DNA of 64,000 bases from Streptomyces coryli. GTDB taxonomy: Bacteria > Actinomycetota > Actinomycetes > Streptomycetales > Streptomycetaceae. The position numbers and the translations under genes are program-made. Below the pieces are notes generated by a model that was not told the origin of the DNA, searched no databases, and worked only from the letters and a program-made list of their open reading frames with translations. Location: contig NZ_JAAKZV010000002.1 of NCBI RefSeq assembly GCF_011044975.1, positions 1 to 64,000 of the forward strand, written 5' to 3'. How positions within the stretch are numbered: the stretch's first letter is position 1; each line of letters begins with the position of its first letter. This document shows, one piece after another, positions 10,272 to 59,587 of this stretch.

Positions 10272-10285
10272 GGACCGGTCGGCCC
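10272..10285. promoter_or_regulatory. candidate DevR-type operator upstream of the flavodoxin-DUF4389-HAD operon
   Basis: GGACC-GGTC-GGCCC, one mismatch from the window consensus GGGCC-N4-GGCCC, 87 bp upstream of the flavodoxin start. Confidence 0.5.
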
Positions 10286-10329
10286 CCGAGAAGCGGTAGC
10301 GAGTACGGCGCCCATGTGCCCAGCCCGCC

Positions 10330-11196
10330 TCAGGGCCGGTCGGGGCAGCCCGAGCCGGCCGGCTCCGGCACGATGAGCACCGGGCAGTGGGCGCGCGTCA
10401 GCAGTGCCTGCACGGCCGGGGTCAGCCGGCCGCGGGGCAGGCTCCGCCGGCGCCGGGCCGTAATGACGGCTACATGGCAGCCCACGGTGGCGTCGACCAG
10501 CGTGCGCGACGACACGGCCTGCGCCGCGTGCAGCCGCTCGTCCGCACGGGACCCCGTGCGCGACCGAGCGCCGGTGCCGGCGGCGGCTGCGGGCTCGGCA
10601 GGCGGCGTGGCCGGCTGGGGGGAGGGCGGATCGGGGAAAGCCGGCAGATACGCGGGGGAGTTGACGACCCGTAGTGCGCGACGGCCGCGGGTCATCTCCT
10701 GGAAGGCATACGTCGCAGCGCCCGCGTCGCCGTCGCTCTCCACCACCAGCAGCACCTCGCCGCCCGAAGCCCCCGCGGACCCCGGCGCCACCGGCGCCCG
10801 GCCTCCGCGTACGACGAGCAGCGGACCTTGTACGCGCCTGGCCAACCGCCTCCCGACCGAGCCGACAAGCAGCCCGGGGACGCCGCCGCGACCGCGGTTG
10901 CCGACGACGGTGAGCGCCGCGTCCCGCCCGCGCCGCAGCAGCGCCAGGACGGGGTCGACCTGCATGACCGACGCGATGATCTCCAGGGTGGGGCTGCGGC
11001 CGTGCACCCGGGCCACGGCGGAGGCCAGGACCGGCACCGCCTCCTCCGCGTCGTGGACCGCACAAACGATCTCCAGCGCGGCTCCGATGGCCAGCGCCTC
11101 CGCCGCGGCGCGGTCCAGCGCCCGCACTGCCCCGACCGAACCGTCGATACCGACGACGACCCGCAGACGCTCCACCGACCCCATCGACCCCACCAT
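10330..11196 (-). CDS. universal stress protein, two UspA domains (second one divergent)
   Basis: About 288 aa from ATG 11196; starts at 11223 and 11184 are also possible. Domain 1 opens with VVVGIDGSVGAVRALD and ends with the ATP-binding loop GNRGRGGVPGLLVGS. Domain 2 is interrupted by a Pro/Ala-rich linker (about residues 190-225) and lacks a clear glycine loop, ending AHCPVLIVPEP. Universal stress proteins of this tandem type bind ATP and are induced under hypoxia in actinobacteria. It is divergent from the DevS-type kinase gene, with two operator-like repeats in the shared 187-bp gap. Confidence 0.85.
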   Translation of the reverse strand: MVGSMGSVERLRVVVGIDGSVGAVRALDRAAAEALAIGAALEIVCAVHDAEEAVPVLASAVARVHGRSPTLEIIASVMQVDPVLALLRRGRDAALTVVGNRGRGGVPGLLVGSVGRRLARRVQGPLLVVRGGRAPVAPGSAGASGGEVLLVVESDGDAGAATYAFQEMTRGRRALRVVNSPAYLPAFPDPPSPQPATPPAEPAAAAGTGARSRTGSRADERLHAAQAVSSRTLVDATVGCHVAVITARRRRSLPRGRLTPAVQALLTRAHCPVLIVPEPAGSGCPDRP

Positions 11197-11256
11197 CCCG
11201 CTCCGTTGACCGCTGCTTTGCATCGAGGCTGCGTCCGCGACACCGGGGCGGGCGAG

Positions 11257-11270
11257 GGGCCGCCCGGCTC
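11257..11270. promoter_or_regulatory. candidate DevR-type operator, USP/devS divergent region, site 1
   Basis: GGGCC-GCCC-GGCTC, 61 bp from the USP start and 114 bp from the kinase start. Confidence 0.45.
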
Positions 11271-11298
11271 CGCGCGCAGCCGACCGGCCTGGCGTACG

Positions 11299-11312
11299 GG
11301 ACGGACCGGCCC
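11299..11312. promoter_or_regulatory. candidate DevR-type operator, USP/devS divergent region, site 2
   Basis: GGACG-GACC-GGCCC, 72 bp upstream of the kinase start; the left half is imperfect. Confidence 0.4.
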
Positions 11313-11383
11313 ACCCCGGCGGCCGTTACCTTTGAGTTCCAGCGCGTTAGAGGGCGCTCGTTCGCGGGCGGAGGGGATGGCCG

Positions 11384-13120
11384 ATGACGCATCGTGGGGT
11401 GGAGGGCGCCGGGCAAGTGCCGCGGCTGCAACTGGACGAGCTGCTGGATGAGTTGCAGGCGCGGATCGACGATATGCGGGGCACCAGGGACCGGCTGCAC
11501 AGCCTGCTCGACGCCGTGATGAGCGTTGGCCGCGACCTCGACCTCAGCCAAGTGCTCCAGCGGATCGTGGAAGCGGCGGTGCTGCTGGTCGACGCCGAGT
11601 ACGGGGCCCTGGGGGTGCTCGGCGAGGACCGGCAGCAGCTCTCCCAGTTCCTGCCGATCGGGATGGACGAGGAACAGATCACCGGGATCGGCGATCTCCC
11701 CTGCGGGCGCGGCATTCTGGGCGTGCTGATCAGGCACCCCGAGCCGCTGCGCCTGCGCGAGATCTCCGAGCACCCGGACTCTTACGGCTTTCCCGCCCAC
11801 CACCCGCCGATGCACTCCTTCCTCGGCGCCCCGGTCCGGGTGCGCGACGAGGTCTTCGGGAACATCTACCTGACGGAAAAGCGGGGCGCGAAGGAGTTCG
11901 ACGGCGAGGACCAGGCGGTGCTGGCCACCCTCGCCACCGCCGCCGGCGTGGCGATCGAGAATGCCCGCCTGTACGAGGAGTCGCGCTGGCGGCAGCGCTG
12001 GATGGCGGCGTCGGCGGAGGTGACCAACGCCCTGCTGTCCGGCGCGGACGAGACGGCCGTGCTCGAGCTGATCGTCGAACGGGCCCGGAATCAGCTCGGC
12101 GCGGACCTGGGCGCGGTCTCGCTCCCCAATGACGACGTGGCGGACCTCACCGTGGCGCTGTCGACCGGCACCGGAGCGGAGGCCTACCGGGGAAGCCTGC
12201 TGCCGGTCGACGGTTCGCTGGCCGGACGCGCGTACGACAGCGGCGCACCGGTGCTGAGCGACGACGTGCAGAGTGAACCGTCCCGCGCGGGCCGGGCGCT
12301 GTGGGAGACCGGTATGGCCGCGGCGGTCGCGGTGCCGATGGGCACCGAGGACGGGAAGCGCGGGGTGCTGCTGCTCGCCCGCGCTCCGGGCGAGCCGCCG
12401 TTCACGTCCGAGGAGACGGCGCGGCTGCAGGGCTTCGCCGGGCAGGCGGCGCTGGCGATGGAGCTGTCGGAGCGGCGCAAGGACGCGGAGCAGCTGGCGC
12501 TGTACGCGGACCGCGACCGGATCGCCCGCGATCTGCACGACCTGGCCATCCAGCGGCTGTTCGCGTCCGGGATGACGCTGCAGAGCGCGGTGCGGCTGCA
12601 GAAGACCGCGGAGGGCGAGGAGAAGCTGCTGCGGGTGGTGCGCGACCTCGACGAGACCATCAAGATCATTCGCTCGACCATCTTCGGGCTGCGGGTGCAT
12701 GAGCCGGGCCTCGCCGCGGGCGGGTTGCGGATGCGGATCCTGGAGGCGTGCGAGGCGGCGGCCGGCTCGCTGGGATTCTCCCCGGCGCTGCGTACGGAGG
12801 GGCTGCTGGACGTGAATGTCCCCCGGCACGTCGCCGGCCATGTGGTGGCGGTGCTGGGGGAGGCGCTGACGAACACCGCCCGGCATGCCCGCGCCACCTC
12901 CGCGGATGTGCGCGTGGTGGTCTCGGCCGACGAACTGACGCTGACCGTGACGGACAACGGCGTCGGCATCGCGCCGGGCGGCCGGCGCAGCGGGCTGGCC
13001 AACCTGGCCGAGCGTGCTCAAGAGTTGGGCGGGGAACTGGAAGTGGACACGTCGCCCGGCACCGGCACGCGGCTGGTGTGGCGGGTGCCGGTGGTCCAGG
13101 AGACCGGCACCCCGTCGTGA
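11384..13120 (+). CDS. devS: DevS/DosS-type heme GAF sensor histidine kinase (copy 1)
   Basis: 578 aa. GAF-A (about residues 50-200) carries HHPPM followed by FLGAPVRVRDEVFGN. His140 aligns by position and context with heme ligand His149 of M. tuberculosis DosS, so it likely senses O2/NO/CO or redox state. GAF-B spans about 215-365. A HisKA_3 domain has phospho-acceptor His385 in RDRIARDLHDLAIQRLF. The HATPase domain has EALTNTARHAR and DNGVGI. It is cytoplasmic, with no membrane segment. The likely partner is the DevR regulator encoded convergently 6 bp downstream. A paralogue with near-identical GAF-A lies at 41531. Confidence 0.93.
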   Translation: MTHRGVEGAGQVPRLQLDELLDELQARIDDMRGTRDRLHSLLDAVMSVGRDLDLSQVLQRIVEAAVLLVDAEYGALGVLGEDRQQLSQFLPIGMDEEQITGIGDLPCGRGILGVLIRHPEPLRLREISEHPDSYGFPAHHPPMHSFLGAPVRVRDEVFGNIYLTEKRGAKEFDGEDQAVLATLATAAGVAIENARLYEESRWRQRWMAASAEVTNALLSGADETAVLELIVERARNQLGADLGAVSLPNDDVADLTVALSTGTGAEAYRGSLLPVDGSLAGRAYDSGAPVLSDDVQSEPSRAGRALWETGMAAAVAVPMGTEDGKRGVLLLARAPGEPPFTSEETARLQGFAGQAALAMELSERRKDAEQLALYADRDRIARDLHDLAIQRLFASGMTLQSAVRLQKTAEGEEKLLRVVRDLDETIKIIRSTIFGLRVHEPGLAAGGLRMRILEACEAAAGSLGFSPALRTEGLLDVNVPRHVAGHVVAVLGEALTNTARHARATSADVRVVVSADELTLTVTDNGVGIAPGGRRSGLANLAERAQELGGELEVDTSPGTGTRLVWRVPVVQETGTPS

Positions 13121-13126: not shown

Positions 13127-13846
13127 TCAGTGGTATCGCTCCGTGCGTGCCCGCTCGTCGCCGGAGTGGTGCGGATCCGCCTGGGCGGCCAGCATCGCGG
13201 CCTGGATGCGGCGTTCGACGCCGAGTTTGGACAGCATGCGGGAGATGTGGTTCTTGACCGTCTTCTCCGACAGATAGAGCCGCTTGCCGATCTGCCGGTT
13301 GGTCATTCCTTCCCCGACGAAGACGAGGATCTCGCGTTCGCGCGGGCTGAGCGCGTCCAGCGCTTCGTTCGCCGGCTCCTGCTCGGTGGTGTCGCCGCCC
13401 CGCAGATTCTGCATCAGGCGGGCCGTGGTCGCCGGGTCGAGCATGGAGCTGCCGGCGGCCACGGTGCGTACCGCCGAGACCAGGTCGGTGCCCTGCACCT
13501 CCTTCAGTACGTATCCGGAGGCACCCGCCATGATCGCGTCGAGCAGGGCATCGTCATCGTCGAACGAGGTGAGCATCAGGCAGGCCAGGTCCGGCATCTG
13601 TGAGCGCAGCTCCCGGCAGACCGAGATGCCGTTGCCGTCCGGCAGCCGCACGTCGAGCACGGCGACGTCCGGGCGCAGCGCGGGCCCGCGGACCACCGCC
13701 TGGGCGGCGGTGCCGGCCTCGCCGACGACCGTGAGATCCGGCTCGCCGTCGAGCAGGTCCTGCAGGCCGCGGCGGACCACTTCGTGGTCGTCGAGGAGGA
13801 AGACCCGTATCGGGTTCTGGGGTGAGAACTGCCTTATTTCGGCCAT
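13127..13846 (-). CDS. devR: DevR/DosR-type LuxR-family response regulator
   Basis: 239 aa from ATG 13846, with GGAGG ten bases upstream; longer frames reach past the operator region and are not credible. Receiver domain residues ~12-130: acidic pair LLDDHEVV, phospho-acceptor Asp65 in [13 protein letters not shown], switch Thr in MLTSF, Lys in YVLKEV. LuxR-type helix-turn-helix ~165-225 with [21 protein letters not shown] and [19 protein letters not shown]. The only response regulator in the window, so probably the target of both DevS copies and the protein that binds the recurrent GGGCC-N4-GGCCC repeat. Two such repeats lie upstream of its own start, suggesting autoregulation. OsdR of S. 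coelicolor is the likely family counterpart. Confidence 0.92.
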
Positions 13847-13935
13847 ATGCGAGGTTCCTCCCTGATGGGTCCTGCCCCGGTGCCGTCCGCGTACCCGGCA
13901 CGTCGATGGTGCACCTACCCACCCGTCATCAGTGA

Positions 13936-13949
13936 GGGCCGAACGGATC
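13936..13949. promoter_or_regulatory. candidate DevR-type operator, devR/Rv1733c-like divergent region, site 1
   Basis: GGGCC-GAAC-GGATC, 90 bp upstream of devR. Confidence 0.5.
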
Positions 13950-13966
13950 TGCGGCACCGCTTTCTT

Positions 13967-13980
13967 GGGCCGATTCGCCC
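13967..13980. promoter_or_regulatory. candidate DevR-type operator, devR/Rv1733c-like divergent region, site 2
   Basis: GGGCC-GATT-CGCCC, 92 bp upstream of the Rv1733c-like gene. A third, weaker copy starts at 13989 (GGGCC-TTTG-CGGCT). Confidence 0.5.
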
Positions 13981-14071
13981 TGCCGTCAGGGCCTTTGCGG
14001 CTCTCGAAGGCCCTGGGAGCGCGTGACACGGTGCTGGGATGACCGATCCGTGACAGGCAGGGGGTACGGCG

Positions 14072-14677: not shown

Positions 14678-15702
14678 TCAGCAGATCCGGGGGAGTTGCT
14701 CCCCGAGCGGCATGTCGACCATGCGGCGGGCGCCGACCAGGGTGCGCATGACCACGCGGCCGGCCGGGGCGGCCTGGACCTCTCCGATGCGCACCGCGGC
14801 CGCCCCCTCGGGAAGCGAGCGAAGCTCCGTCAGCGCGGACTCCGCCGCGGTCGCGGAGACGCAGGCGAGGAAGCAGCCCTCGTTGGCGACGTGCAGCGGG
14901 TCGAGGCCGAGGATCTCGCAGGCGCCGGCGACCGGGGCGGGCACCGGCACGGCCGCCTCGTCGATCTCGACGGCGACCCGGGAATCGCGGGCGATCTCGT
15001 TGAGGGCTGCCGCCACGCCGCCGCGGGTGGGGTCGCGGAGGGTGTGGACGTGCGCGCCGATCGGGGCCAGGGCGCGTACGAGATGGTGCAGCGGCCGGGA
15101 GTCGGACGCGATGTCGCCCTCGAAGCCGAGCCCTTCGCGGGTGGAGAGCACGGCGGTTCCGTGCAGGCCGATGGGTCCTGACAGCAGCACGACATCGCCG
15201 GGATGCGCCGCGGCGGCCGAGGGGTGCAGGCCGCCGGTGCGATGGCCGATGCCGGTGGTGGTGATGAAGAGCTTGTCGGCGGCGCCGCGGCCGACGACCT
15301 TCGTGTCGCCGGTGATGACCGGCACCCCCGCCTCGCGGGCCGCCTTGCCGAAGGAGTCGAGGACGGCGCGGAGTTCGGCGGTCGGCAGGCCCTCCTCGAT
15401 GATCAGCGTCGCGGCGAGCGCGACCGGCTGCGCGCCGCGCATGGCGAGGTCGTTGACGGTGCCGTGGACGGCGAGGCTGCCGATGTCCCCGCCGGGGAAG
15501 AACAGCGGGCTGACGACGAAGGAGTCGGTGCTCATCAGCAGGTCGGGGTGGCCGGGCAGCAGCGCGGCGTCCTCCAGCGGTCCTTCCGGGCCGCCGAGCG
15601 CGGGCAGCACGAGGGCGTCGAGGAGCTCGGCGGTCAGCCGGCCGCCGGCGCCGTGGCCGAGCAGGATGCGGTCGGTCTCTTCGTACGGGACGGGGCAGGC
15701 GG

Positions 15703-15706
<4 letters not shown>
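14678..15706 (-). CDS. hypE: hydrogenase maturation protein HypE (carbamoyl dehydratase)
   Basis: 342 aa. HypE converts the carbamoyl group received from HypF into a thiocyanate on its own C-terminal cysteine and passes CN to iron on HypCD. The protein ends in the diagnostic PRIC. AIR-synthase-like motifs are present: LGHGAGGRL near the N-terminus, [25 protein letters not shown] and [15 protein letters not shown]. Length is normal (~340). Its start overlaps the hypD stop (ATGA). It closes the 11-gene minus-strand hydrogenase operon. Confidence 0.96.
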
Positions 15707-16796
<1,090 letters not shown>

Positions 16797-16800
<4 letters not shown>

Positions 16801-17468
16801 CGATCCGCGGCCTCCGGCGCGGCGGGGCGGGTGACGTCCCAGCGGATGTCCACGATCCCCTCGACGGACCGGGCGAGCCGGGACGCGACCGGTACGAGGG
16901 AGGTGTTGCGGACGTCGCCGGTGAAGGTGACGATGCCCTCCGCCACCCGGGCCTCGACCGGCGGCGGGTCGCCGGGGAAGAGGACCTCGACGACGTCGCG
17001 GCGTATCTCTTCGGCGAGGTCGTCGTCCGGACGCAGGAAGACCTTCAGCAGGTCGCTGCGGCTGATGATGCCGGCCAGCATGCCCTGGGCATCGATCACC
17101 GGCAGCCGCTTGACCCGCTTCAGCGCCATGGTGCGGGCGGCCTCGGCGAGGATGGCGTCGGCGTGGATGCAGATCGCGGGGGACGTCATCACCTCACCGG
17201 CGGTCACGCCGCCGGCCTTCACCAGGTCGTTCAGGCGCCGCAGTTGCTCGAACCGGGTCGGGTCGCCGTCGCGGAACTCCTCCTTGGGCAGCAGGTCGGC
17301 CTCGGAGACGACGCCGATGACCCGGCCCTCGCCGGCCACCACCGGTACGGCGCTGACCTTCCACTCCTCCAGGGTCCTGACGATCTCCTTGAACTGCGCG
17401 TCCTGCCCGACGGCGATGACGGTGTGGGTCATCACGTCGCTCACAGTGTGGAGGGCGGGCTCGGTCAT
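16797..17468 (-). CDS. CBS-pair plus BON domain protein (copy 1)
   Basis: 223 aa. CBS1 about residues 8-62 ([15 protein letters not shown] … GVVSEADLL), CBS2 about 88-145 ([15 protein letters not shown] … GIISRSDLL), then a BON domain about 150-215 ([14 protein letters not shown]-type strand, here [12 protein letters not shown]). CBS pairs bind adenine nucleotides and BON domains bind lipid or protein surfaces, so an energy-sensing role is plausible. Hrp1 (Rv2626c), a CBS protein, is a strong DosR target in M. tuberculosis. It sits between the hydrogenase large subunit and hypD in the same operon; a paralogue lies at 22516. Confidence 0.88.
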
Positions 17469-17478
17469 GGCGGACTCC

Positions 17479-18807
17479 TCAGGTGCGCTCGACCGTGAGG
17501 TCGAGGAAATGGGTGGAACAGGAGATGCACGGGTCGTGGTTGCGGATGGCGCGCTCGCACAGCGCGGTCAGGGCCGCGTCGCCCGGGTCGCCGGCGTCCA
17601 GTTCCCGCTGCACCAGGCGGCGCAGGTCGAGTTCGATGGCCGCCTGGTTCTGCGCGGTCGGGGGGACGAGGCGGGCGTCGGCGACGGTGCCGTCCGCGGT
17701 GAGCCGGTAGCGGTGGTAGAGCACGCCGCGGGGCGCCTCGGTGGCGCCGTGGCCGGTGCCCGCGCGTGGTGGTACGTCCAGGTGGGCCGCGGCGGGCGGC
17801 TCGTACGCCTCGATGATGCGCAGCGCCTCGTCCACGGCGTACAGCGTCTCCACGGCGCGCACCACGACCGAACGGAAGGGATTGCGGCAGGCCACCCCCT
17901 CCCACGGATCGCCAAGACCGGCCTCGAGTGCGGCGCGGCGGGCAAGCGGGGACAGCCAGCGGCCGCTGAGCGTGTAACGGGCGAGCGGCCCCGTCAGATA
18001 CGGCGAGCCGTCGATCGAGGCGTGCAGGGCGGTGGAGTGCGGGACTTGGTGCTCCACGACCTCGGCCGTGAAGGCGTGCACCGGGAACTGGCGCAGCCGC
18101 TCACCGGCGAGAAGGGTGGGGGTGCCGCCGTCGATGGCGTACCGGCCGGGCTCGGCCAGCGCCAGCAGCGGCACCTCGACCTCCGCCTCCGGAAAGTCGA
18201 AGCCGGCCACCCAGCGGACGGTCTCCCACGCGTCGTCACGGGCGTGCCGCAGCTGTTCGGCGAGCGGCCGCAGCTCGGCCCGCGTGGGCACCCGGTAGAA
18301 GCCGCCGAGGCGGACGTTGACCGGGTGGATGGCGCGGCCGCCGAGCAGTTCCATCAGGGCATTGCCGGCCTGCTTGAGCCGCAGCCCGCGCTCGACCACA
18401 TTCCGGTGCGAGCGGGCGAGTTCGATGGCGCTCGCGGCGCCCAGGAAGTCCGGGGCGTGCAGCAGATAGATGTGCAGGGCGTGGCTCTCGATCCACTCGC
18501 CGCAGTACAGCAGCCTGCGCAGCGCCGCCAGTTGCCCGCCGACCGTGACACCGCAGGCGTCCTCCAGCGCCGCGCAGGCGCTCATCTGGTACGCGACCGG
18601 GCAGATGCCGCACACCCGGGCGGTGATGTCCGGCGGCTCGGTGTGGGCCCGGCCGCGCAGGAACGCCTCGAAGAAGCGCGGCGGTTCATAGATCTGCAGC
18701 CGGGCCTCCTCGACCTTCTGCTCGTGGACGCGCAGGTGCAGCGCCCCCTCTCCCTCGACCCGGGCGAGGGAGCCGACGTGCAGGACGCGGGATCCGCGGT
18801 GGGTCAC
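17479..18807 (-). CDS. [NiFe]-hydrogenase large subunit, group 3b-like
   Basis: 442 aa from GTG 18807, which overlaps the small-subunit stop (GTGA); the longer upstream frame is antisense noise. The Ni-Fe ligands are Cys66 and Cys69 in the L1 motif [11 protein letters not shown] and Cys427 and Cys430 in the L2 motif DPCISCSTH. Cleavage after His433 would remove a 9-residue tail, fitting the maturation protease gene at 28670. In L1 the residue often His in other groups is Tyr. With the S, G and B subunits it should form a soluble NAD(P)-linked heterotetramer like the mycobacterial Mhy/Hyd3 and archaeal sulfhydrogenases. Confidence 0.93.
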
Positions 18808-19556
18808 GAGCCGGCCTCCTTCGCGAACGCGGTGGCGTTGAAGGTGCGCAGGAACCGCTCCGTATCGCGGTCGTCCATGCCGTCGCGGCGCAGCAGCGGG
18901 ATGAGCGCGGGCAGATTGACCGTCCCCGCCGGCCCGAAGCAGCCGTAGCAGCCGCGCCCGTACGCCGGGCAGATCGCGCCGCAGCCGGCGTGCGTGACCG
19001 GGCCGAGGCAGGGGGTGCCGTGGGCGACGGTGACGCACACGGTGCCGCGCTGCTTGCAGGCGAAGCACACGCTGTGGTCCGGGATCTGCGGCTTGCGCCC
19101 GGCCAGGAAGGCGGTGATCACTTCGAGCAGCTGGCCGCGGTCGATCGGGCAGCCGCGCAGCTCGAAGTCCACATCCACGTGCGCCGATACCGGCGTCGAG
19201 GTGGCGAGGGTGTCGATGTAGTCGGGGCGCGCATAGACCACGGAGCGGAATTCGGCGACGTCGGCGAAGTTGCGCAGCGCCTGGATGCCGCCCGCGGTCG
19301 CACACGCCCCGATGGTGACCAGGTGCTTCGACTCGGCGCGGATGCGCCGGATGCGCTCGGCGTCCGCGGCGGTGGTGACCGAGCCTTCGACCAGCGTGAG
19401 GTCGTACGGGCCCGGCCCGACCGCGCTCGACGCCTCCAGGAAGTGCGCGATGTCCACCTTGCCCGCCAGCGTGAGGAGTTCGTCCTCGCAGTCGAGCAGG
19501 GTGAGCTGGCAGCCGTCGCAGGAGGCCAGCTTGAAGACGGCGAGCTTCGGTGTCAT
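18804..19556 (-). CDS. [NiFe]-hydrogenase small subunit, group 3b-like
   Basis: 250 aa with no Tat signal, so cytoplasmic. The proximal cluster ligands start with SCDGCQ (Cys13, Cys16), then IGACATAGG and GTPCLG. A cysteine-rich C-terminus ([29 protein letters not shown]) supplies medial and distal [4Fe-4S] clusters. It relays electrons between the Ni-Fe site and the FAD subunit. It starts one base after the gamma-subunit stop and overlaps the large subunit by 4 nt. Confidence 0.94.
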
Positions 19557-19557
19557 G

Positions 19558-20376
19558 TCACAGCTCCCTTACGGCGAGCAGCGGTGCCACCCGGTCGTAA
19601 CCGGCGACCGGCCCGTCCCGGCACAGCAGCAGCGGCCCGAGCTGGCAGTGGCCGCAATGACCGGTGGCGCAGCGCATGTTGCGCTCCAGCGACACCCGGA
19701 TGCGGTCGGCCGGCACGCCCCGGTGCCGCAGGTCGCGCGCGGTGGCGCGGATCATCGCCTCGGGCCCGCAGACGAAAGCCGTGGTCTCCCCGGGCGCGAA
19801 GTCGGCCCGGTTCAGCAGCTGCGTGACCATCCCCACCGAGCCGAGCCAGCCGTGTCCCGGCCGGTCGACGGTGACGGCAACGTGCGCGGGCGCGGCGTCC
19901 GCGAGACAGCGCAGCTCATCGGCGTACAAGAGGTCGTCGGGTGTGCGGGCGCCGGCCAGGAGGTTCAGGCGCCGGTAGCGGCCGGCGCCGGCGAGCGCCG
20001 CGCGGATCAGCGGGCGCAGCGGCGCGAGGCCGATGCCGCCCGCGACCACGAGCACGTCGCCGCCGGCCGCCCGCTCCAGCTCCCACCCGGTGCCGAACGG
20101 CCCGCGCAGGCCCAGCTCCTGCCCCTCCGCGGCCGCGCACACGGCAGCGGACACCGCGCCCACCGCGCGCACCGTATGCGCCAGCCGGTGCCGGTGATCC
20201 AGGATGCCGCTCACCGACACCGGGATCTCCCCGACGCCGAAGGCGTAGATCATCGCGAACTGGCCGGGCCGGAACGGCGGCAGCGCCCGGGCCACCGGCT
20301 CCACGACCAGCGTCGTGGTGTCGGTGGTCTCCTGGCTGCGCCGCACCACCTGATACGGCACCGGCACCTCGGTCAT
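19558..20376 (-). CDS. hydrogenase gamma subunit, FAD/NAD(P)-binding ferredoxin reductase type
   Basis: 272 aa from ATG 20376, overlapping the previous stop (ATGA). The N-terminal FAD domain has [19 protein letters not shown]; the NAD(P) domain has [15 protein letters not shown] and [11 protein letters not shown]-terminal [2Fe-2S] motif [15 protein letters not shown] with a further Cys completes the DHOD-type electron-transfer fold. In sulfhydrogenase-type complexes this subunit exchanges electrons with NAD(P)H. The order here is B, CNB protein, G, S, L. Confidence 0.93.
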
Positions 20377-20834
20377 GATCCTGGCCCGCTGCCGTACGGT
20401 CCGTAGAGGTCGAGCAGCCGGGTGCGGGCGGAGACCAGCCGGTGGCCGATGATCTCGGCGACCCGGCGGGCCACCGCCCGCCCGAGCACCGGGTCGGCCT
20501 CGCACAGGGCCCGTATCACGGTGGCGTCGAACTCCAGCGCCCGCACCGGGCTCTGCGCTTCGGCGCCCAGGTGCCACTGGTAGGGCGGGAACAGCCAGGA
20601 CCAGCCGACCAGATCGCCGGAGCCGAGGGTCTCGATGGTGGCCGAGCGGCGGCCGGGGACGTGCAGGTCGAGGACGATGGAGCCGGTGCGGATGATCCAG
20701 AAGCGGTCGGCGCGCTGCCCTTCGCTGAAGATGCGGTCGCCGGCGCCGAAGCTCACTTCCTTCGCGGTGGTCAGCAGCCGGTCACGGCTCTGCGGATCGA
20801 GCGTGCCGAGCAGGCTGGTGGTTGTCTTGATCAT
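20373..20834 (-). CDS. cyclic nucleotide-binding-domain protein without DNA-binding domain
   Basis: 153 aa from ATG 20834 (ATGA overlap with the upstream beta subunit). A single Crp-like beta-roll is visible: [41 protein letters not shown], then a long helix. There is no helix-turn-helix, so it is not a transcription factor. It is tightly coupled on both sides within the hydrogenase genes and may be a regulatory subunit that ties the enzyme to a nucleotide or redox signal. The phosphate-binding Arg expected for cAMP is not obvious, so the ligand is unknown. Confidence 0.85.
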
Positions 20835-21961: not shown

Positions 21962-21977
21962 CGTTCCCCCTCCCTCG

Positions 21978-22490: not shown

Positions 22491-22515
22491 CTCGGTTCTC
22501 CCTTCTGCGGGTGCT

Positions 22516-23247: not shown

Positions 23248-23273
23248 GGCGGTGCTCCTTGTCAGCGTGGGTA

Positions 23274-26364: not shown

Positions 26365-26369
26365 GAGGG

Positions 26370-45680: not shown

Positions 45681-45718
45681 CGGGGACCGGGCCCATGGGA
45701 TCCCGAGAGCGCGGCGAG

Positions 45719-49192: not shown

Positions 49193-49283
49193 GGGGTCCC
49201 CCTCGGATCGCGTACGCGCCGGCTCTCGCCACCGTCGTACCGCCAAGGCGCAGGTGCCCAGCGGCCGTTGGACCTGTGGTGAG

Positions 49284-49297
49284 GGGCTGATCGGCCC
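49284..49297. promoter_or_regulatory. candidate DevR-type operator upstream of DUF1906 gene
   Basis: GGGCT-GATC-GGCCC, 92 bp upstream. An imperfect inverted copy (CGGCC-GTTG-GACCT) lies at 49262-49275. Confidence 0.5.
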
Positions 49298-49405
49298 TTG
49301 GCCTGGGACACGTCCGGCTTGCGGATGATGAAACGGCTTCGGCGGGGCGGCGCATGCCCTCAGGAACCGATCGCCGCCGCCGGCCGGCCCCGGCGGCGTC
49401 CCCCG

Positions 49406-50032: not shown

Positions 50033-50941
50033 TCACGGCGCGGGCACCAGCAGCACAGGGCAGTGCGCGTGCTGGAGTGCCGCGTGGGTGACCGGGCCCA
50101 GATGGGCGCCCAGGCGGCGCGGATTGCGGCGGGCGGTGAGCACCAGGAGATCGGCCGTCCGGCTCGCTTCGACGAGGGCCGCGGAAGCGCTCCCGCACTC
50201 GTGTCCGGCCGTCACCGGCACATCCCGGAATTCCTCCCGGAGCGGCGCTACGGCGTACCTGGCCAGGCTCTCCCCGGTCCGCCGCGCGGAGACGTCGGCG
50301 TCCCGTATGCGCTCGGCTTCCATCCGGGTGAGTGCAGTGGCCATCGGCGGATACCGCCAGGCGTGCAGCGCGTGCAGCCGTGCCTTCCGCCGCCGCGCGT
50401 CCTCGAAGGCGTGGCGCAGCGCGGGCTCTTCACTGCCGGCCTGGACGCCGACAAGGACGGTGCCCTGCGAGCGCTCACGCGGCTCCCCGTCACCGCGTAC
50501 GACCAGGACCGGCCCGTCGGCGCGGGCAGCCAGGCGCAGGCTTACGGAGCCGAGCAGCAGACCGGCGAAGCCGCCGTGCCCACGGGTGCCGACGACCGTC
50601 AGCGACGCGCTGCGGCCGCAGCGCAGGAGGGCCTGAACCGCGTCCTCGGCGGTGACGGACGGCACCACGATCAGGCCGGGAGCGAGCTTGCCTGCCTTCT
50701 CCGCGGCGTGCTCGACCAGGTCGCGGGTCGCGCGGTAGCGGGACCGGTGATCCTCGGCCGTCAGGCCCTCGCCGGGAGGGGCGGGCGACGGCCACGGATC
50801 GCCGCAGAGTATCTCCAGGCCGGCGCCGCGGCGGACGGCTTCGTCCACCGCGTACTCGAGCGCGAGCTCGGCGGAACCTGATCCGTCGTAGCCGAGGACG
50901 ACTCGGCCGTGCAGCGGGGGCACATCAGGTGAATTGACCAT
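50033..50941 (-). CDS. universal stress protein, two UspA domains
   Basis: 302 aa from ATG 50941. Domain 1 RVVLGYDGSGSAELALEYA to GTRGHGGFAGLLLGSVSLRL (intact ATP loop); domain 2 VLVGVQAGSEEPALRHAF to LGPVTHAALQHAHCPVLLV. Strong resemblance to the USP at 40262. It starts 14 bp after the DsrE-type gene, so it is the last gene of the sulfide oxidoreductase operon. Confidence 0.9.
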   Translation of the reverse strand: MVNSPDVPPLHGRVVLGYDGSGSAELALEYAVDEAVRRGAGLEILCGDPWPSPAPPGEGLTAEDHRSRYRATRDLVEHAAEKAGKLAPGLIVVPSVTAEDAVQALLRCGRSASLTVVGTRGHGGFAGLLLGSVSLRLAARADGPVLVVRGDGEPRERSQGTVLVGVQAGSEEPALRHAFEDARRRKARLHALHAWRYPPMATALTRMEAERIRDADVSARRTGESLARYAVAPLREEFRDVPVTAGHECGSASAALVEASRTADLLVLTARRNPRRLGAHLGPVTHAALQHAHCPVLLVPAP

Positions 50942-50955
50942 GGCAGGACTCCGGT

Positions 50956-51432
50956 TCAGGTGTAGATGATCTGGCTGCCGACGGCGCGGGCGTAGAACTC
51001 GCCGACGGTGATGATGTCCGCGACGCAGTCGATGAGGTCGTCCTTGCCGAGGCCGAAGAGGTCGGTGGAGGCCTTGCAGGCGTAGATTCCCGCCCCGGTG
51101 TCGGCGATCATTTCCACGAACTCGGGGATGGAGGGGAAGTCGAACTGCTCCATCTTCCACTCCATGTACCGGGTCATCGCCGCGGACATCCCGGGCAGGC
51201 CGCCGAGGGCCGTGGGCAGATGCAGGCCGGGATTGCCGACGGTGGCGAGCCGGATCTGCTCCTGGCGGCGGCGGGTGATCGCATCGAGGCCGAAGAAGGT
51301 GAAGAAGAGATCGGCCTCGATGCCTTCCGCACGGGCTCCGTTGGCCAGGATCAGCGGCGGATAGATGCCGTCCAGGGACCCCTTGGAGACGATGACCGAG
51401 ACTTTTTCGAGGGTGGCGGGCGCGGTGGACAT
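50956..51432 (-). CDS. DsrE/DsrF-like family protein
   Basis: 158 aa. Opens VSVIVSKGSLDGIYPPLILAN and continues EADLFFTFFGLDAIT, the DsrE-fold strand-helix pattern; a central Cys in AGIYACKASTDLFGL matches the active Cys of DsrE2-type proteins. These carry persulfide sulfur between partners in the cytoplasm. It stands 15 bp after the TusE/DsrC-like gene. Role in sulfur relay inferred from the neighbours. Confidence 0.87.
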   Translation of the reverse strand: MSTAPATLEKVSVIVSKGSLDGIYPPLILANGARAEGIEADLFFTFFGLDAITRRRQEQIRLATVGNPGLHLPTALGGLPGMSAAMTRYMEWKMEQFDFPSIPEFVEMIADTGAGIYACKASTDLFGLGKDDLIDCVADIITVGEFYARAVGSQIIYT

Positions 51433-51447
51433 GGCGGCAGCTCCTCC

Positions 51448-51765
51448 TCAGATACAGCTGTGCGGCTTGGGGATTCCGGCGATCTTCGCGGCGACCTTGG
51501 CCGGGCCCTTGGGGAAGAGCCGGTAGAGCTCCTTCACCGGCACTCCGGAGATCTTCGCGAGCGCGCGTACGGCCGGGCCGCTGCCTTTGGCGTGGTACTC
51601 CGCGCGCATGACCTTGATGACCTGCCAGTGGTCGGCGGTGAGTTCGGTGATGCCTTCGGCGGCCGCCAGGTACGGCGCCATCTCCTCGGTCCACCGCTCC
51701 GGCTCGGTGAAGTAGCCGTCCTCGTCGAGGACGACGCTGTGGCCTGCGTAGATGTGAATGGGCAT
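51448..51765 (-). CDS. TusE/DsrC-like sulfur-relay protein
   Basis: 105 aa. VVLDEDGYFTEPERWTEEMA and ITELTADHWQVIKVMRAEY are the usual DsrC/TusE blocks. The C-terminal arm ends GIPKPHSCI, keeping the penultimate Cys that accepts sulfur. The second, upstream Cys of true dissimilatory DsrC is absent, so it is closer to the TusE type. It lies between the sulfide oxidoreductase and DsrE-like genes with gaps of 4 and 15 bp. Confidence 0.9.
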   Translation of the reverse strand: MPIHIYAGHSVVLDEDGYFTEPERWTEEMAPYLAAAEGITELTADHWQVIKVMRAEYHAKGSGPAVRALAKISGVPVKELYRLFPKGPAKVAAKIAGIPKPHSCI

Positions 51766-51769
51766 GGTG

Positions 51770-53026
51770 TTACGGCCTCCTCGGTTGGGTGGGTTCAGCC
51801 TTGCCCCGGCGCGGCATACGTGCGGTGATGCCGGGCAGCTCGCGACCGGGAAGCACGCGGTGCCAGTACAGCCACGCAAAGGCGCGCTTGCCGAGGTGGC
51901 TCAGTCGGGACTCCTTCAGCAGCGGCAGCCCCAGCGGACCCGGATAGTGGCCGGGCAGCGGTTCGGTGTCGTAGTTGAAGTCGATGAGCAGACCCTTGCC
52001 GAAACCGGTTTCGACGAAGCAGTTGGCGTGGCCGTCGAAGGAGCCGTCCAGCGGCTGCCCGGCGAGGAAGCGGCGGATGTTGCGGACCACGGCCTCGCCC
52101 TCGAAGTGGGCGACCGAGCCGGCCTTGGAGGTGGGGACGTCGGTGGCGTCGCCGATCGCGAAGATCTCGGGGGCGGCCTTCGCCTGCAGCGTGTGCCGGT
52201 CGACCTGGACGAAGCCGAGCTCGTCACCGAGGCCGGGGGAGCGGTCCACGTACGCCGCGCCGCCGTGCGCCGGGACGACCACGGCGAGGTCGAAGCGTTC
52301 CTCGCGGCCGTCGTAGGAGATGAGCCTGCCGCCGGCGCCGTCCACCTCGCCGGTGGCGAAGTCGGTGACCAGCTCGATGTGCTTGTCCGCCAGCAGCCCC
52401 GCGAGTGCCTTCGCGGCCACCGGCCGGGTGAAGGCGGCGTCCAGAGGCGTGACGTAGGTGATCCGGACGCGGTCGCGGAGGTGCCGGCCGCGGAAGTACG
52501 CGTCGGCGAGGAAGCAGAACTCCAGCGGGGCGACCGGGCACTTGACCGGAAGGTCGACGGGATTCACGACGATCCGGCCGCCCTCGAAGCGCTCCAGGGC
52601 CTGCCGGAGGCCGGCCGCGCCTTCGGGCGTGTAGAAGGTGAACACCCGCTCCTGCGGGCCCGCTTCGGTCAGGCCCTCGGTGGCAGCGGGCAGCAGCCGG
52701 GCGCCCGACGCGATCACCAGCACGTCGTAGTGCAGGATCGTGCCGTCGGCGAAGTACACGGTGCGGGTGTCGGTGTCGACCCGGGTGGCTTCCTGCCGCC
52801 GGTAGTCGATACCGGCCCGCAGCTGTCCGGCCCGCGGCCGGACCAGATCCTCGATCTGCGCCATCCCGAACGGAACGAACAGCAGACCTGGCTGGTAGAG
52901 GTGGTCGTCATCCCGGTCGACGACGACGATCTGCGCCTCGTGCCAGCCGTACGCGCGCCGCAGCCGGTTGGCCATCAGAGTGCCACCGGTGCCGCCGCCG
53001 AGTATCACGATGCGATTCCGCTTCAT
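51770..53026 (-). CDS. FAD-dependent sulfide:quinone oxidoreductase-like protein
   Basis: 418 aa from ATG 53026. FAD site RIVILGGGTGGTLMANRL, second FAD segment VLVIASGARLLP and IFAIGDATDVPTSKAGSVAHFE. The pair Cys-x7-Cys in PVKCPVAPLEFCF and a later Cys in GHANCFVETG are candidates for the redox cysteines of sulfide oxidation. SQR enzymes oxidise sulfide at the membrane and pass electrons to quinone. With TusE- and DsrE-like partners downstream it suggests a persulfide-handling module. An operator-like repeat lies 82 bp upstream. Confidence 0.86.
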   Translation of the reverse strand: MKRNRIVILGGGTGGTLMANRLRRAYGWHEAQIVVVDRDDDHLYQPGLLFVPFGMAQIEDLVRPRAGQLRAGIDYRRQEATRVDTDTRTVYFADGTILHYDVLVIASGARLLPAATEGLTEAGPQERVFTFYTPEGAAGLRQALERFEGGRIVVNPVDLPVKCPVAPLEFCFLADAYFRGRHLRDRVRITYVTPLDAAFTRPVAAKALAGLLADKHIELVTDFATGEVDGAGGRLISYDGREERFDLAVVVPAHGGAAYVDRSPGLGDELGFVQVDRHTLQAKAAPEIFAIGDATDVPTSKAGSVAHFEGEAVVRNIRRFLAGQPLDGSFDGHANCFVETGFGKGLLIDFNYDTEPLPGHYPGPLGLPLLKESRLSHLGKRAFAWLYWHRVLPGRELPGITARMPRRGKAEPTQPRRP

Positions 53027-53107
53027 GCCCCCACCCTGCGTCCGGCGGAGACCCGGGCACCGGGGCCGCCCGGGCCGGACCACGCCACCGAACGGCGGCC
53101 TTGCACG

Positions 53108-53121
53108 GAGCCGAACGGCCC
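53108..53121. promoter_or_regulatory. candidate DevR-type operator upstream of the sulfide oxidoreductase operon
   Basis: GAGCC-GAAC-GGCCC, one mismatch, 82 bp upstream of the start. Confidence 0.55.
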
Positions 53122-53141
53122 TCGTCACGAGCGCGGCGCCG

Positions 53142-54153: not shown

Positions 54154-54225
54154 TCCCACCTCGCGACCTTGGACTTCGCCGGAGCCGGCAATGCCACCGT
54201 GGAACGTTCAAAGGCTGGGCGGGCA

Positions 54226-54261
54226 GGGCGGAGCGGCCCTCGGCAGAGGGTCTTCCGGCCC
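54226..54261. promoter_or_regulatory. two candidate DevR-type operators between DUF3048 and htpX units
   Basis: GGGCG-GAGC-GGCCC (54226-54239) and GGGTC-TTCC-GGCCC (54248-54261), 73-130 bp from the starts on either side. Confidence 0.5.
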
Positions 54262-54355
54262 GCCCCAGCTGCCCCTTCGGCAGCAGCTCCCCAGGGCTGG
54301 GTGATGTTCGCTGGAGGTGAAGCCGACAGCCGGCTCTCCGAAGGAGGCGAGGACG

Positions 54356-56096: not shown

Positions 56097-56939
56097 TCAG
56101 CCGGGCACGACCGCCACGGGGCACTGTGCGCGGCGCAGCACGACCCTGAGTGTCGGCCCGAGCACGGGCGGTTCGGTCCCCGAACCACGGCCGAGTACGA
56201 GCAGTTCCGCCTCCGTCGATGCCTGCAGCAGTGCTGACCATGCCGTGCCCGGAACGGGCTCGGCCCTGACGGTCAGGGCGTCTTGGGCCCGGGCGCCGAA
56301 TACCCCTTTGATGACTTCGTGGGCGCGCGCGATGCCCTCGGCCCACCCGTCTCCCGGCGAGCCCGGTGCCGGGTACGCCGGAACCAGGGCCGGTTCCCAC
56401 GCATGAACGGCGCCCAGTTCGGCGTGCCGCAGCTCGGCCGCGCGGATCGCGAAGTCCACTGCCGCCGTGCTCGGTTCCGTACCGGCGATGCCCACGGCGA
56501 CGCGCGGCACCCCGAAGCGGTGCCCGGGCGGCTCGTCCCGTACGACCACGACCGGTCCGCGAGCACCGGCGACGGCCTGCCGCGCCGTGGAGCCGAGCAG
56601 CAGACCGGGGTCATGGCTGTTCCCTCGGGCACCGACCGCGAGGATGCTGCCCTGCGTCGCCGCGTCGATAAGGGTGCTTGCTACGGGCCCGGGGAGCACA
56701 TCGGAGGTGATATCGACGAGGCTGCGGCGCGCGTGGGCAACCTGCGCCGCCCCTTCGAGCAGCTGCCGGCCCGCTGCCCGCGCCACGCTGCCGCGACCGG
56801 GGGGCACGTGCACGAGGTGCAGCCGCCACGTCCTGCGGTATGCCTCGTCGACGCCCCATTCGACCGCCCGTATGCCGGCCGCTGATCCGTCGACCCCCAC
56901 GACTACCGGCAGCTTGTCCCGCACTGGCACCTCCAACAT
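56097..56939 (-). CDS. universal stress protein, two UspA domains
   Basis: 280 aa. Domain 1 VVVGVDGSAAGIRAVEWGVD to GARGNSHDPGLLLGSTARQ, where the first part of the glycine loop is altered; domain 2 VAVGIAGTEPSTAAVDFAI to GRGSGTEPPVLGPTLRVVL. It ends QCPVAVVPG. It begins 6 bp after the copper ATPase stop, yet an exact operator-like repeat lies inside the 3' end of that gene, 47 bp upstream, so it may have its own promoter. Confidence 0.88.
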   Translation of the reverse strand: MLEVPVRDKLPVVVGVDGSAAGIRAVEWGVDEAYRRTWRLHLVHVPPGRGSVARAAGRQLLEGAAQVAHARRSLVDITSDVLPGPVASTLIDAATQGSILAVGARGNSHDPGLLLGSTARQAVAGARGPVVVVRDEPPGHRFGVPRVAVGIAGTEPSTAAVDFAIRAAELRHAELGAVHAWEPALVPAYPAPGSPGDGWAEGIARAHEVIKGVFGARAQDALTVRAEPVPGTAWSALLQASTEAELLVLGRGSGTEPPVLGPTLRVVLRRAQCPVAVVPG

Positions 56940-56945
56940 GGTGAG

Positions 56946-59507
56946 TCACGGCCTCCAGGATCGATCCTTCGGGCGGACCCGGGCAGGGCCGTTGGGCCCG
57001 CCTCCTGGCGCCGGCCGGCCCTCCGTCAGCCGGCTGACCTGGCGGCGGCGCAGCCGTGAGGCATTGGCGACGACCGACAGCGAGGACAGGGCCATGGCCG
57101 CCGCGGCAAGCATCGGACTGAGGCGCAGACCCCAGAGCGGGTAAAGAACTCCGGCCGCTACCGGGATACCTACGGCGTTGTAGACGAGGGCGAAGAACAG
57201 GTTCTGCTTGATGTTGCGCATGGTGGCGCGGGAGAGGCGGACGGCGGTGGCCACGCCGGTCAGCGAGCCGGAGATCAGGGTGATGTCCGCGGCCTCGATG
57301 GCCACGTCGGTGCCGGTGCCGATCGCCATGCCGACGTCGGCGGCGGCGAGTGCGGGCGCATCATTGATGCCGTCGCCGACCATGCCGACCCGGCGGCCTT
57401 CGTCCTGCAGGCGGCGGATCTCGTCTGCTTTGTGCTCGGGCAGCACCCCGGCGCGTACGTGCGCCACTCCGACCTGAGCGGCTATCGCGGTGGCGGTCCG
57501 CTCGCTGTCGCCGGTGAGGATGACCGTCTCGAGGCCAAGCCGGTGGAGGCCGGCGATGGCCTGGGCGGAGTCGGCCTTGACGGTGTCGGCCACGGCCAGG
57601 ACGCCGGCAGGCCGGCCGGCGACCGCGGCCAGGATCGGGGTCTTGCCCTGTGCGGCCAGTCGGTCCGCGGTGGGGATGAGGTGGGTGGCGTCGACTCCGG
57701 CGTCGGCGAGGAGCCGGGCGGTGCCGACGAGCACCTCGCGGCCGTCGACGGTGGCTGCCACTCCTTTGCCGGTGACGGAGTCGAAGGCCGTGGCGGTGGG
57801 AACAACCAGGCCGCGTTCGCGGGCCGCGTCGGTGACGGCGTTGGCGAGGGGGTGCTCGCTGTCGGCCTCGGCGGCCGAGACGAGGGCCAGCAGCCCGTCG
57901 CCGGTGCCGTCTTCGGCTCGTACGTCGGTCAGGACAGGCTTGCCGGCGGTGACCGTGCCGGTCTTGTCGAGGACGATCGTGTCCAGCTTGTGCGCGGTCT
58001 CCAGAGCCTCGGCGGAGCGGATGAGGATGCCGGCCCGGGCACCTTTGCCCGTGCCGACCATGACCGACAGCGGGGTGGCCAGTCCGAGCGCGCAGGGGCA
58101 GGCGATGATCAGCACAGCGACTGCCGAGACCAGCGCCAGGGTCAGGGCGGGCGCAGGCCCGGCGGCGTACCAGAGGGTGAACGTGGCGATGGCGACCCCG
58201 ATGACCACCGGGACGAAGTAGCCCGAGATGGCGTCGGCGAGGCGTTGGATCGGGGCCTTGGAGGCCTGCGCCTGCCGTACCAGCCGGATGATCTGCGCGA
58301 GCATGGTGTCGGCGCCGACCTTGGCCGCGCGTACGTGCAGTGAGCCGGTGGTGTTCACGGTGGCACCGATGACGGTGTCGCCGGCGCGCTTGGTCACCGG
58401 CATCGGCTCTCCGGTGACCATCGATTCGTCGACCGCGGAGGAGCCGGAGAGCACCTCGGCGTCCACCGGGACCTTCTCGCCCGGCCGTACGACAACCTCG
58501 TCATCCACCACCACCTCGGCCACCGGGATTTCGGCCTCGGCACCGTCACGCAGCACCCGCGCGGTACGTGGCTGCAGGCCCAGCAGGGCGCGGATGGCCT
58601 CACCGGTGCCGGCCTTGGCACGGGCCTCCAGCAGCCGGCCGAGCACGATCAGGGTGAGGATGACGCCGACTGCCTCGAAATACACCTCGCGCACGTCATC
58701 CGGCAGCAGGCCGGGTGCGAGCGTCACCAGCAGGCTGTAGCCGTATGCGGCCGATGTACCCAGAGTGATCAGGGAGTTCATATCGGCACCGCGGTGGCGC
58801 AGGGTCAGCCAGCCGGTGCGGTGGATCGGCCACCCGGTGTAGAGCATCACCGGGGTGATCAGGACCAGTTGCAGCCAGTGGCTCAGCATCCAGCCCGGCA
58901 CCCAGCGGGCACCGAACAACTCGTGCGCCATGACGGCGACCAGCACCGGCAAGGTGAGCACGGCACCGACCGCCACCCGGCGACCCAGGTCGGCGAGTTC
59001 GGCGCGGCGCTCGGCGGCATCCGCCGACTCTGCCTCGGCGGCGGGGACGTCAGCCTCACCGCCCGCGGCTCGTTCGACTCCGGCCGAGCCTGACGGCGTC
59101 GTCGTCGACGGTGGGCTGCCTGCGCTGTCCTCGGCCCGATCGACGACGAGGGTGCCACGGATCATGTTCATCCCACACGCGAACCCGAACGACCCGGCCT
59201 GCTCCGGCCGCAAGCGCACGGTGGTGCTCTGGAAGGCCGGCAGATCGGCGCCGATATGCAGATCAGGGAAGACGACCCGATTCGTGCATGCACCGGACTC
59301 CTGCCGATTGAAGACCAACTCGACCGGGACACCCTGCCGCACCCGGATCACATCCGGGCTGTAGCCACCGCGTACGGCCACCTCCACCCGCTGCACACCG
59401 CCCTCCAGGCGGGCGCCGAAGGCGCGGCGCGGACCGAGAAAGTACCACCCGATGGCGGCGATCAGCAGGGCGGACAGTGCCGTCACCACGATCTCGGAGA
59501 TGTTCAT
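56946..59507 (-). CDS. copA: copper-transporting P1B-type ATPase with N-terminal cupredoxin domain
   Basis: 853 aa from ATG 59507, with GGGGAGG upstream. Instead of an HMA domain, the N-terminus has a membrane anchor (about 5-24) and a cupredoxin-like domain (about 38-125) with possible ligands Cys74, His84, Cys111 and Met113/115. The ATPase core follows: actuator TGE (365-367), metal-site Cys470-Pro-Cys472 in IACPCALG, phosphorylation Asp514 in DKTGT, and [10 protein letters not shown]. It exports Cu(I). A CsoR-like palindrome overlaps the promoter region. The residue motif [16 protein letters not shown] is typical of the CopA branch. Confidence 0.95.
56986..56999. promoter_or_regulatory. 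candidate DevR-type operator inside the copA 3' end
   Basis: Exact consensus GGGCC-GTTG-GGCCC within the coding sequence of copA, 47 bp upstream of the USP start at 56939. Confidence 0.55.
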
Positions 59508-59556
59508 GGGAGACCTCCCCTTGCTCGATTGGGTGCACCTCCCACGATCCGCTTGT

Positions 59557-59573
59557 ATACCCCCTCCGGGTAT
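59557..59573. promoter_or_regulatory. CsoR-type copper operator upstream of copA
   Basis: ATACCC-CCTCC-GGGTAT, a 17-bp perfect palindrome with a 5-base centre, 50 bp upstream of copA. The pattern matches the pseudo-palindromes bound by actinobacterial CsoR/RicR repressors. No csoR gene is in the window. Confidence 0.75.
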
Positions 59574-59587
59574 GGTCCGTTCGGATC
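59574..59587. promoter_or_regulatory. candidate DevR-type operator between copA and SHOCT gene
   Basis: GGTCC-GTTC-GGATC, directly abutting the CsoR-like palindrome; 67 bp from copA and 129 bp from the SHOCT gene. Confidence 0.45.

Follow-up and report, generated by a model that had tools for sequence, protein, structure and literature searches.

Inverted repeats in a 50-kb island of Streptomyces coryli fit the OsdR/DevR operator and suggest a two-box promoter grammar that extends to hydrogenase and sulfide-oxidation genes

Introduction

What are the inverted repeats of the form GGGCC-N4-GGCCC that recur upstream of many genes in an island of about 50 kb in Streptomyces coryli? The island lies within positions 1 to 64,000 of contig NZ_JAAKZV010000002.1 (assembly GCF_011044975.1), and this whole 64-kb stretch, called the window here, was covered by our census of the regulon and of DevR. 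A preliminary description of the DNA had taken the repeats to be candidate operators of the only DevR in the window. We find that they very probably serve as operators for the DevR/OsdR-type response regulator encoded in the window, judging by their agreement with a published consensus and their placement. That identity, proposed earlier, stands; what had been missed was that the motif is already published, that many sites are paired at 20-24 bp and that part of them keep a register with a -10-like element. The motif itself is not new; it is the known OsdR/DevR kind of operator. What is new relative to the literature searched is the promoter grammar, together with the modules for hydrogenase and sulfide.

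OsdR (SCO0204) is the DevR orthologue of S. coelicolor, and its consensus, AGGGCCGATCGGCCCT, is backed by gel shifts with mutated probes (PMC5069765, Urem 2016). According to the main text of that paper, usp, ppdK, nitroreductase and PPOX genes, and osdR as well, are preceded by predicted OsdR sites at positions between -50 and -158, clustered around the regulator (PMC5069765). The genes whose expression rises with that of osdR in S. lividans include gap3, ppdK, usp, PPOX, nitroreductase and a second two-component sensor, SCO0211 (PMC6302529). The DevR of Mycobacterium tuberculosis is served by DevS and DosT and binds a strong box and an adjacent weak box cooperatively, the proximal box overlapping the -35 region (PMC3029386, PMC4973870). 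In M. smegmatis the hydrogenase Hyh, which mediates hypoxic fermentation, is reported to be modulated through DosR (PMC13098282).

Results

Sites were scored with a 16-bp symmetric matrix made from the 26 S. coelicolor OsdR sequences in Table 1 of PMC5069765, a source independent of the window; that table is headed predicted sites, and part of its 26 sequences were tested by gel shift. A score of 10 served as the threshold. Genes were called by codon usage, with two added by eye and a 45-codon open reading frame (ORF) at 45899 dropped, and were named from Pfam in nearly all cases and from NCBIfam in some. The island promoter zones amounted to 3,235 bp and the rest of the island to 47,466 bp; the zone of usp 56097 was added by hand because the gap upstream of this gene is only 6 bp.

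The window held 21 sites scoring at least 10, of which 17 lay in island promoter zones, three elsewhere in the island and one outside it, and the density in the zones was about 83-fold that in the rest of the island. None of 490 column-permuted matrices reached 17 promoter-zone sites (mean 0.39, maximum 9), and dinucleotide shuffles of the zones gave a mean of 0.34 sites (maximum 2, n=200). Without the hand-added zone, 15 matrix sites stood against a shuffle mean of 0.29. The bare core with at most one mismatch was found 20 times in the zones, compared with a dinucleotide-shuffle mean of 2.7 (maximum 11, n=200). Coding DNA outside the zones was at chance level, with three sites versus a shuffle mean of 2.4. 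The comparison of matrix hits upstream of starts with shuffled sequence, of the kind that had been suggested as a check, favoured the operator reading within the window, and the equal density in shuffled or coding sequence that would have spoken against it was not seen. Taken together, the fit to AGGGCCGATCGGCCCT and the DevR-type regulator encoded in the window support the view that DevR would bind these repeats (PMC5069765).

The exact copies reported at 34970, 41291, 43262 and 56986 were confirmed, and the window has no others (shuffle mean 0.94; none of 100 shuffles reached four). Those at 43262 and 56986 each fall within the 3' end of a neighbouring gene, the kinase gene 41531-43282 and the ATPase gene 56946-59507, respectively. 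Another four sites of at least 10 are within genes and distant from any start: those at 20089, 42484 and 44633, in the island, are what chance gives, and the one at 6539 is in a transporter gene outside it.

A site of at least 10 stands before 17 gene starts, distributed over 14 regions (Table 1), namely those of the flavodoxin, devR, the Rv1733c-family gene, the Pat-hydrogenase unit, the STAS-hyp unit, gap, usp 30846, 31879, usp 35098-ppdK, usp 40262-nitroreductase, Stealth, hsp20, the Rv2525c-like gene (DUF1906), SQR, DUF3048, 54356 (the htpX side) and usp 56097. The nitroreductase would be served by the box at 41291 through its unit with usp 40262. Fourteen of the 18 units named in the preliminary description are among those boxed, and usp 30846, 31879 and usp 56097 are additions to its list; the sites claimed for a USP gene and devS (7.0, shared) and for PPOX (5.1) are weak, and that for the copper/SHOCT unit fails (2.6). 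Weak promoters, in the range of 5-7, are those of usp 10330/devS1, the ORF starting near 39140, PPOX and devS2, and the matrix scan gave no more than 2.6 for the promoters of the copper-type ATPase/SHOCT unit (59573, 2.6), GH65 and the hydrolase at 46139. The exact box at 56986, within the 3'-terminal part of the cupredoxin/E1-E2 ATPase gene, precedes a usp gene; no box is present at the copper/SHOCT promoter itself. Outside the island, all promoters of the lanthipeptide cluster, PPK2, 60301-63881 and the solute-binding genes scored 3.4 or less, in agreement with the earlier remark that no comparable site precedes the peptide cluster or the glnX/glnH pair; a one-mismatch core at 2121 before lanC scored only 2.3.

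Many boxes are not solitary. Pairs spaced by 21-23 bp occur in the window at 30739/30761, 31738/31761, 54225/54247, 56985/57007 and 29600/29621, and the pair in the devR region is spaced by 31 bp; 34969 and 41290 are among the window boxes with no partner of score at least 2 within 40 bp. The spacing was assessed in 130 related loci (80 around devR and 50 around hydrogenase genes), in which 572 non-redundant sites had 111 partners at 20-24 bp, compared with about 10 expected (2.07 per position, five offsets), and a smaller rise of 19 partners at 31-34 bp. Twelve scrambled matrices gave 0-6 partners at 20-24 bp from 77-291 sites each; scrambled matrices yield fewer sites than the real one, which somewhat lowers their counts here and below. 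Repeated contexts were dropped by shared 16-mers, and the results for pairing and register are given as counts and not as P values because residual relatedness remains.

An unbiased motif search near the boxes recovered the tandem box first and, after removal of the partnered orientations, A...TGG with the A at +31/32 (log-likelihood 285, compared with 101-132 in four other stretches). For the 349 sites of at least 12 in the relatives, there were 65 occurrences of AnnnTGG at +31/32 and 53 at +52-54, against 2.0 per position, and this register was present in both the devR and the hydrogenase loci. Twenty-one scrambled matrices at a threshold of 10 (105-288 sites each) gave 0-6 occurrences at +31/32. 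In the window, eight of the 17 boxed starts have A...T at one of the five positions defined from the relatives, compared with a mean of 1.2 (maximum 4) over 32 shifted settings, and three of the 17 have the full AnnnTGG, compared with 0.09 (maximum 1). The ACGGTGG at +55 from box 49283 is one base beyond the counted positions. The window promoters of usp 40262 and SQR hinted at a third register, at +76/77, but it was not retained since the relatives have no peak at this distance.

Partner boxes fall on the side that a two-box register predicts. Sites in the proximal register (+31/32) have a partner of at least 2 upstream in 37% of cases and downstream in 3%, sites in the distal register (+52-54) have one downstream in 57% and upstream in 15%, and sites in neither register have one in 20% on each side. 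Given distances of 31-32 and 52-54 bp to AnnnTGG, the boxes would lie near -42 and -64. The simplest reading is that either of the two may be the strong one and that the -10 element is reduced to A-11, T-7 and GG. Tandem strong and weak boxes with the proximal one next to the putative -35 region are thus evident, statistically, for part of the sites. No description of OsdR box spacing or register was found in the literature searched, which comprised main texts without supplements and few papers from subscription journals. As a search rule, the series box, 21-22 bp, box, 31-32 bp, AnnnTGG can be expected to be far more specific than the palindrome, and the register yields direct predictions of start points.

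The presumed user of these sites is a DevR/OsdR-type protein, the sole response regulator among the genes scanned. Its best solved relative is M. tuberculosis DevR (3c3w, E 6e-75); the EKTVKN stretch of the recognition helix is conserved, D65, the likely phosphorylated aspartate, aligns with D54 of M. tuberculosis DevR, and the protein is 70-79% identical to the DevR proteins of the 80 relatives listed. Both DevS-like kinases keep the HPPM histidine and the YLT tyrosine of the DevS GAF domain in an alignment with 2w3d, residues that we take to be the heme ligand and the distal tyrosine of DevS. Two kinases that are 70% identical, together with one response regulator convergent with the first of them, parallel the DevS/DosT pair of M. 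tuberculosis.

The Pat-hydrogenase unit encodes the Pat-like protein, a CBS-BON protein, a flavodoxin, an Fe-S beta subunit, a cNMP protein, an FAD/NAD subunit, the small and large [NiFe] subunits, a second CBS-BON protein, HypD and a HypE-like protein. The large subunit has both nickel-ligand cysteine pairs (RVCGICP and DPCISC). A likeness to four-subunit sulfhydrogenases was found: the best NCBIfam matches are ShyA for alpha, HydB/ShyB for beta and ShyD for delta, and for the gamma subunit ShyC and HydG rank fourth and fifth behind related reductases. The enzyme would thus be a sulfhydrogenase-like (group 3b-like) [NiFe] hydrogenase. It was not assigned as ShyA or HydA itself because the curated Hyd/Shy equivalog cut-offs were not reached, ShyA scoring 260.6 bits against 700 and the other subunits also falling below. 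The cNMP-binding protein of the operon (20373-20834, minus strand) has a weak match of 27.8 bits (cut-off 400) to the family 2B encapsulin shell, and the match falls on the stretch that carries the cNMP-binding domain.

A homologue of the large subunit is present in 52 of 200 genomes of the family. Fifty loci, one from each of 50 of these genomes, were compared, the partial matches in G113 and G023 and a second copy in G145 being excluded; four of the 50 are cut by contig ends. A box of at least 10 precedes the hydrogenase unit in 16 of the 50, compared with a mean of 1.25 (maximum 11, n=295) for scrambled matrices. Up to three genes were considered as the possible start of the unit and the best of them was used, a choice that favours a match but was equally open to the scrambled control. 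The box is not universal.

The boxed sulfide unit joins SQR to DsrC-like and DsrE-like proteins. The DsrC-like protein has 105 aa and a single cysteine, adjoining the C-terminus (HSCI). All three genes are present in 25 of 28 loci (L167-L194), and a DsrC homologue is found in two of 200 family genomes (E<=1e-12) and in 34 of 394 class genomes (E<=1e-15). Among seven close copies in other genomes (L167, L168 and L195-L199), six have an OsdR-type box 40-173 bp before SQR, the exception being L196; the SQR of L198 is only a remnant. More distant loci have a box in one of 26 cases (L181).

Discussion

Based on these features, the following course may be proposed. Low oxygen or redox stress would be sensed by one or both of the DevS-like GAF kinases, which would phosphorylate DevR. 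Phosphorylated DevR may then bind the strong box and, cooperatively, a weaker one at a distance of two helical turns, the occupied boxes lying near -42 and -64. At the -42 box, beside the -35 region, it could recruit RNA polymerase to the poor -10-like element A-11nnnT-7GG. On balance, we incline to the view that streptomycetes have a two-box grammar of the OsdR type (-42/-64, two helical turns apart, either box strong, with GAnnnTGG lacking the usual first T), and that it has recruited H2 (Pat-[NiFe] hydrogenase) and sulfide/persulfide (SQR-DsrC-DsrE) modules, by which electrons may be disposed of in hypoxia through H2 and sulfur chemistry as well as through nitrate. With the motif recognized as a known operator, much of the regulon of an uncharacterised actinobacterium becomes readable from sequence, and the boxes predict that a hydrogenase and a sulfide-oxidation cassette are placed under the dormancy regulator in Streptomyces relatives.

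Several results weigh against these conclusions. In the relatives, AnnnTGG stands in either register at only 114 of the 349 strong sites, with 235 in neither, and nine of the 17 boxed starts in the window lack A...T at the five positions. The classical -10 element TANNNT is present at none of the 17 window promoters; in the relatives it shows a small excess at +30 to +33 (eight, compared with about one expected, 0.27 per position). Both kinase genes are only weakly boxed (devS1 7.0; best upstream site of devS2 5.1). Finally, in genome-wide counts in two relatives, the stricter core GGGCCGNNCGGCCC showed no excess over the reversed control in either (29 versus 40 and 48 versus 50 places). The palindrome alone is therefore not diagnostic, and the signal is local and positional. 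The same counts would suit GC-rich palindromes arising by chance in DNA of 73% GC, as would the frequency of the core with at most two mismatches (246 places in the window, 60 of them intergenic), and the earlier caution about chance matches holds to that extent. Chance is nevertheless a very improbable source of the repeats: under scrambled matrices or composition-matched shuffles, zone enrichment, pairing distance and -10 register all fall to background or close to it. It is refuted for the sites of at least 10 as a set, and individual weak sites (5-8) may be chance.

It is hardly credible, too, that the inverted repeats act as RNA hairpins, either terminators of the upstream gene or leader structures, instead of protein sites. 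The boxes at 34969, 43261 and 56985, which immediately follow a stop codon or fall within the 3' end of a gene, would be well placed for this, but others (13935, 29600, 54225) sit between divergent genes, where no upstream gene ends, and the preferred distance to a downstream -10-like element and the match to a gel-shift-tested consensus are those of a protein-binding site. We also consider it unlikely that the sites are operators of another NarL-type regulator, a paralogue of DevR, or are shared among paralogues with the window's DevR as one of several users. Two devR-type genes do occur in some relatives (Streptomyces flavotricini, L003 and L062; S. hyaluromycini, L009 and L018), and OsdK of S. 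coelicolor also partners with SCO3818 (PMC5069765). However, devR lies inside the boxed island and its own box has A...T in register, as autoregulation predicts; moreover, any paralogue of this type would be expected to recognize the same box, which alters the user and not the kind of site. Recognition by the DevR of the window remains the reading that we prefer.

Compared with the DosR core GGGAC...GTCCC quoted in the preliminary description, the core here is GGGCC...GGCCC. Targets of DevR/DosR in M. tuberculosis include usp, hsp20-type and Rv1733c genes, and to our knowledge that regulon does not include hydrogenase, Stealth or Pat genes. Hyh of M. smegmatis is a group 3b hydrogenase. The putative -42/-64 geometry is that reported in words for M. 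tuberculosis, with close packing and the proximal box over -35 (PMC3029386). The island resembles the OsdR regulon of S. coelicolor in its consensus, overlapping targets and local clustering at the regulator; unlike the osdR-osdK operon, devR and devS1 are convergent here, and a second kinase with 70% identity is linked (PMC5069765). The [NiFe] hydrogenase operon and the SQR-DsrC-DsrE unit are boxed in the window, whereas the words hydrogenase, tandem and spacing are absent from the main text on the S. coelicolor regulon (PMC5069765). The group co-expressed with osdR in S. lividans agrees with several of the boxed units; it has nitrate reductase and, in the part of the text examined, no hydrogenase operon (PMC6302529). 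As with Hyh, a hydrogenase is tied to a DosR-type regulator, here by predicted control through the boxes (PMC13098282); in contrast to Hyh, Pat, CBS-BON and a cNMP-binding gene belong to the operon here.

Features of the window

Table 1. Predicted OsdR-type boxes and associated genes in the window. Scores are those of the OsdR matrix; negative distances are to the gene named, and A...T or variant -10-like elements are given by their distance from the box.
Feature	Position	Strand	Score	Remarks
OsdR box	10271-10286		14.6	-94 of flavodoxin 9673-10185(-)
Weak box	11298-11313		7.0	Sub-threshold; between usp 10330-11184(-) and devS1 11384-13120(+)
DevS/DosT-type kinase 1 (devS1)	11384-13120	+		Two GAF, HisKA_3, HATPase; likely phospho-acceptor H385; heme-pocket His and Tyr kept
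DevR/OsdR-type response regulator (NarL/LuxR family)	13127-13846	-		239 aa; convergent with devS1, 6-bp gap
OsdR box	13935-13950		11.8	-97 of devR; A...T at +32
OsdR box	13966-13981		10.8	31 bp from 13935; -98 of Rv1733c-family gene 14072
Pat-hydrogenase unit	14678-25970	-		One apparent transcription unit; Pat-like acetyltransferase at 23274-25970
OsdR box	26060-26075		12.1	-98 of Pat; weak partners 26083 (5.4) and 26038 (2.1); A...T at +54
STAS - HycI-type protease - HypF - HypC unit	26104-29537	-		From gene calls and family matches
OsdR box	29600-29615		13.7	Between STAS/hyp(-) and gap(+); partner of 7.5 at 29621
OsdR box	30739-30754		9.5	22 bp upstream of 30761
OsdR box	30761-30776		14.4	-77 of usp 30846; A...T at +31
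OsdR box	31738-31753		10.7	23 bp upstream of 31761
OsdR box	31761-31776		12.0	-110 of 31879 (no family found; then GH65 gene); A...T at +53
OsdR box	34969-34984		17.9	Exact copy inside; -121 of usp 35098 - ppdK
OsdR box	41290-41305		17.9	Exact copy inside; -119 of usp 40262 - nitroreductase(-); 233 bp from devS2
DevS/DosT-type kinase 2 (devS2)	41531-43282	+		70% identical to kinase 1; likely phospho-acceptor H387; heme-pocket His and Tyr kept
OsdR box	43261-43276		16.5	Exact copy inside; -87 of Stealth 43356; partner of 4.0 at +22; A...T at +54
OsdR box	45666-45681		14.2	-85 of hsp20; ATGCTGG at +31
OsdR box	49283-49298		16.5	-99 of Rv2525c-like gene 47849-49192 (DUF1906 in the preliminary description); ACGGTGG at +55
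Type III SQR - DsrC-like - DsrE-like - usp unit	50033-53026	-		From family matches; boxed at 53107
OsdR box	53107-53122		13.7	-89 of SQR
OsdR box	54225-54240		11.8	Between DUF3048(-) and 54356/htpX(+); ACGGTGG at +32 towards DUF3048
Partner box	54247-54262		6.7	22 bp from 54225
OsdR box	56985-57000		15.0	Exact copy inside; -54 of usp 56097-56939(-), within ATPase 3' end; ATCCTGG at +31
Partner box	57007-57022		11.7	22 bp from 56985

The ORF 38593-39138 on the minus strand, which overlaps ppdK at the latter's 3' end, encodes 181 aa with no Pfam match and has an upstream site of only 6.3. At 70-7132 on the plus strand lie lanthipeptide-type genes (Lant_dehydr_N, LanC-like and two ABC transporters), followed by PPK2 at 7192, which by box score fall outside the regulon.

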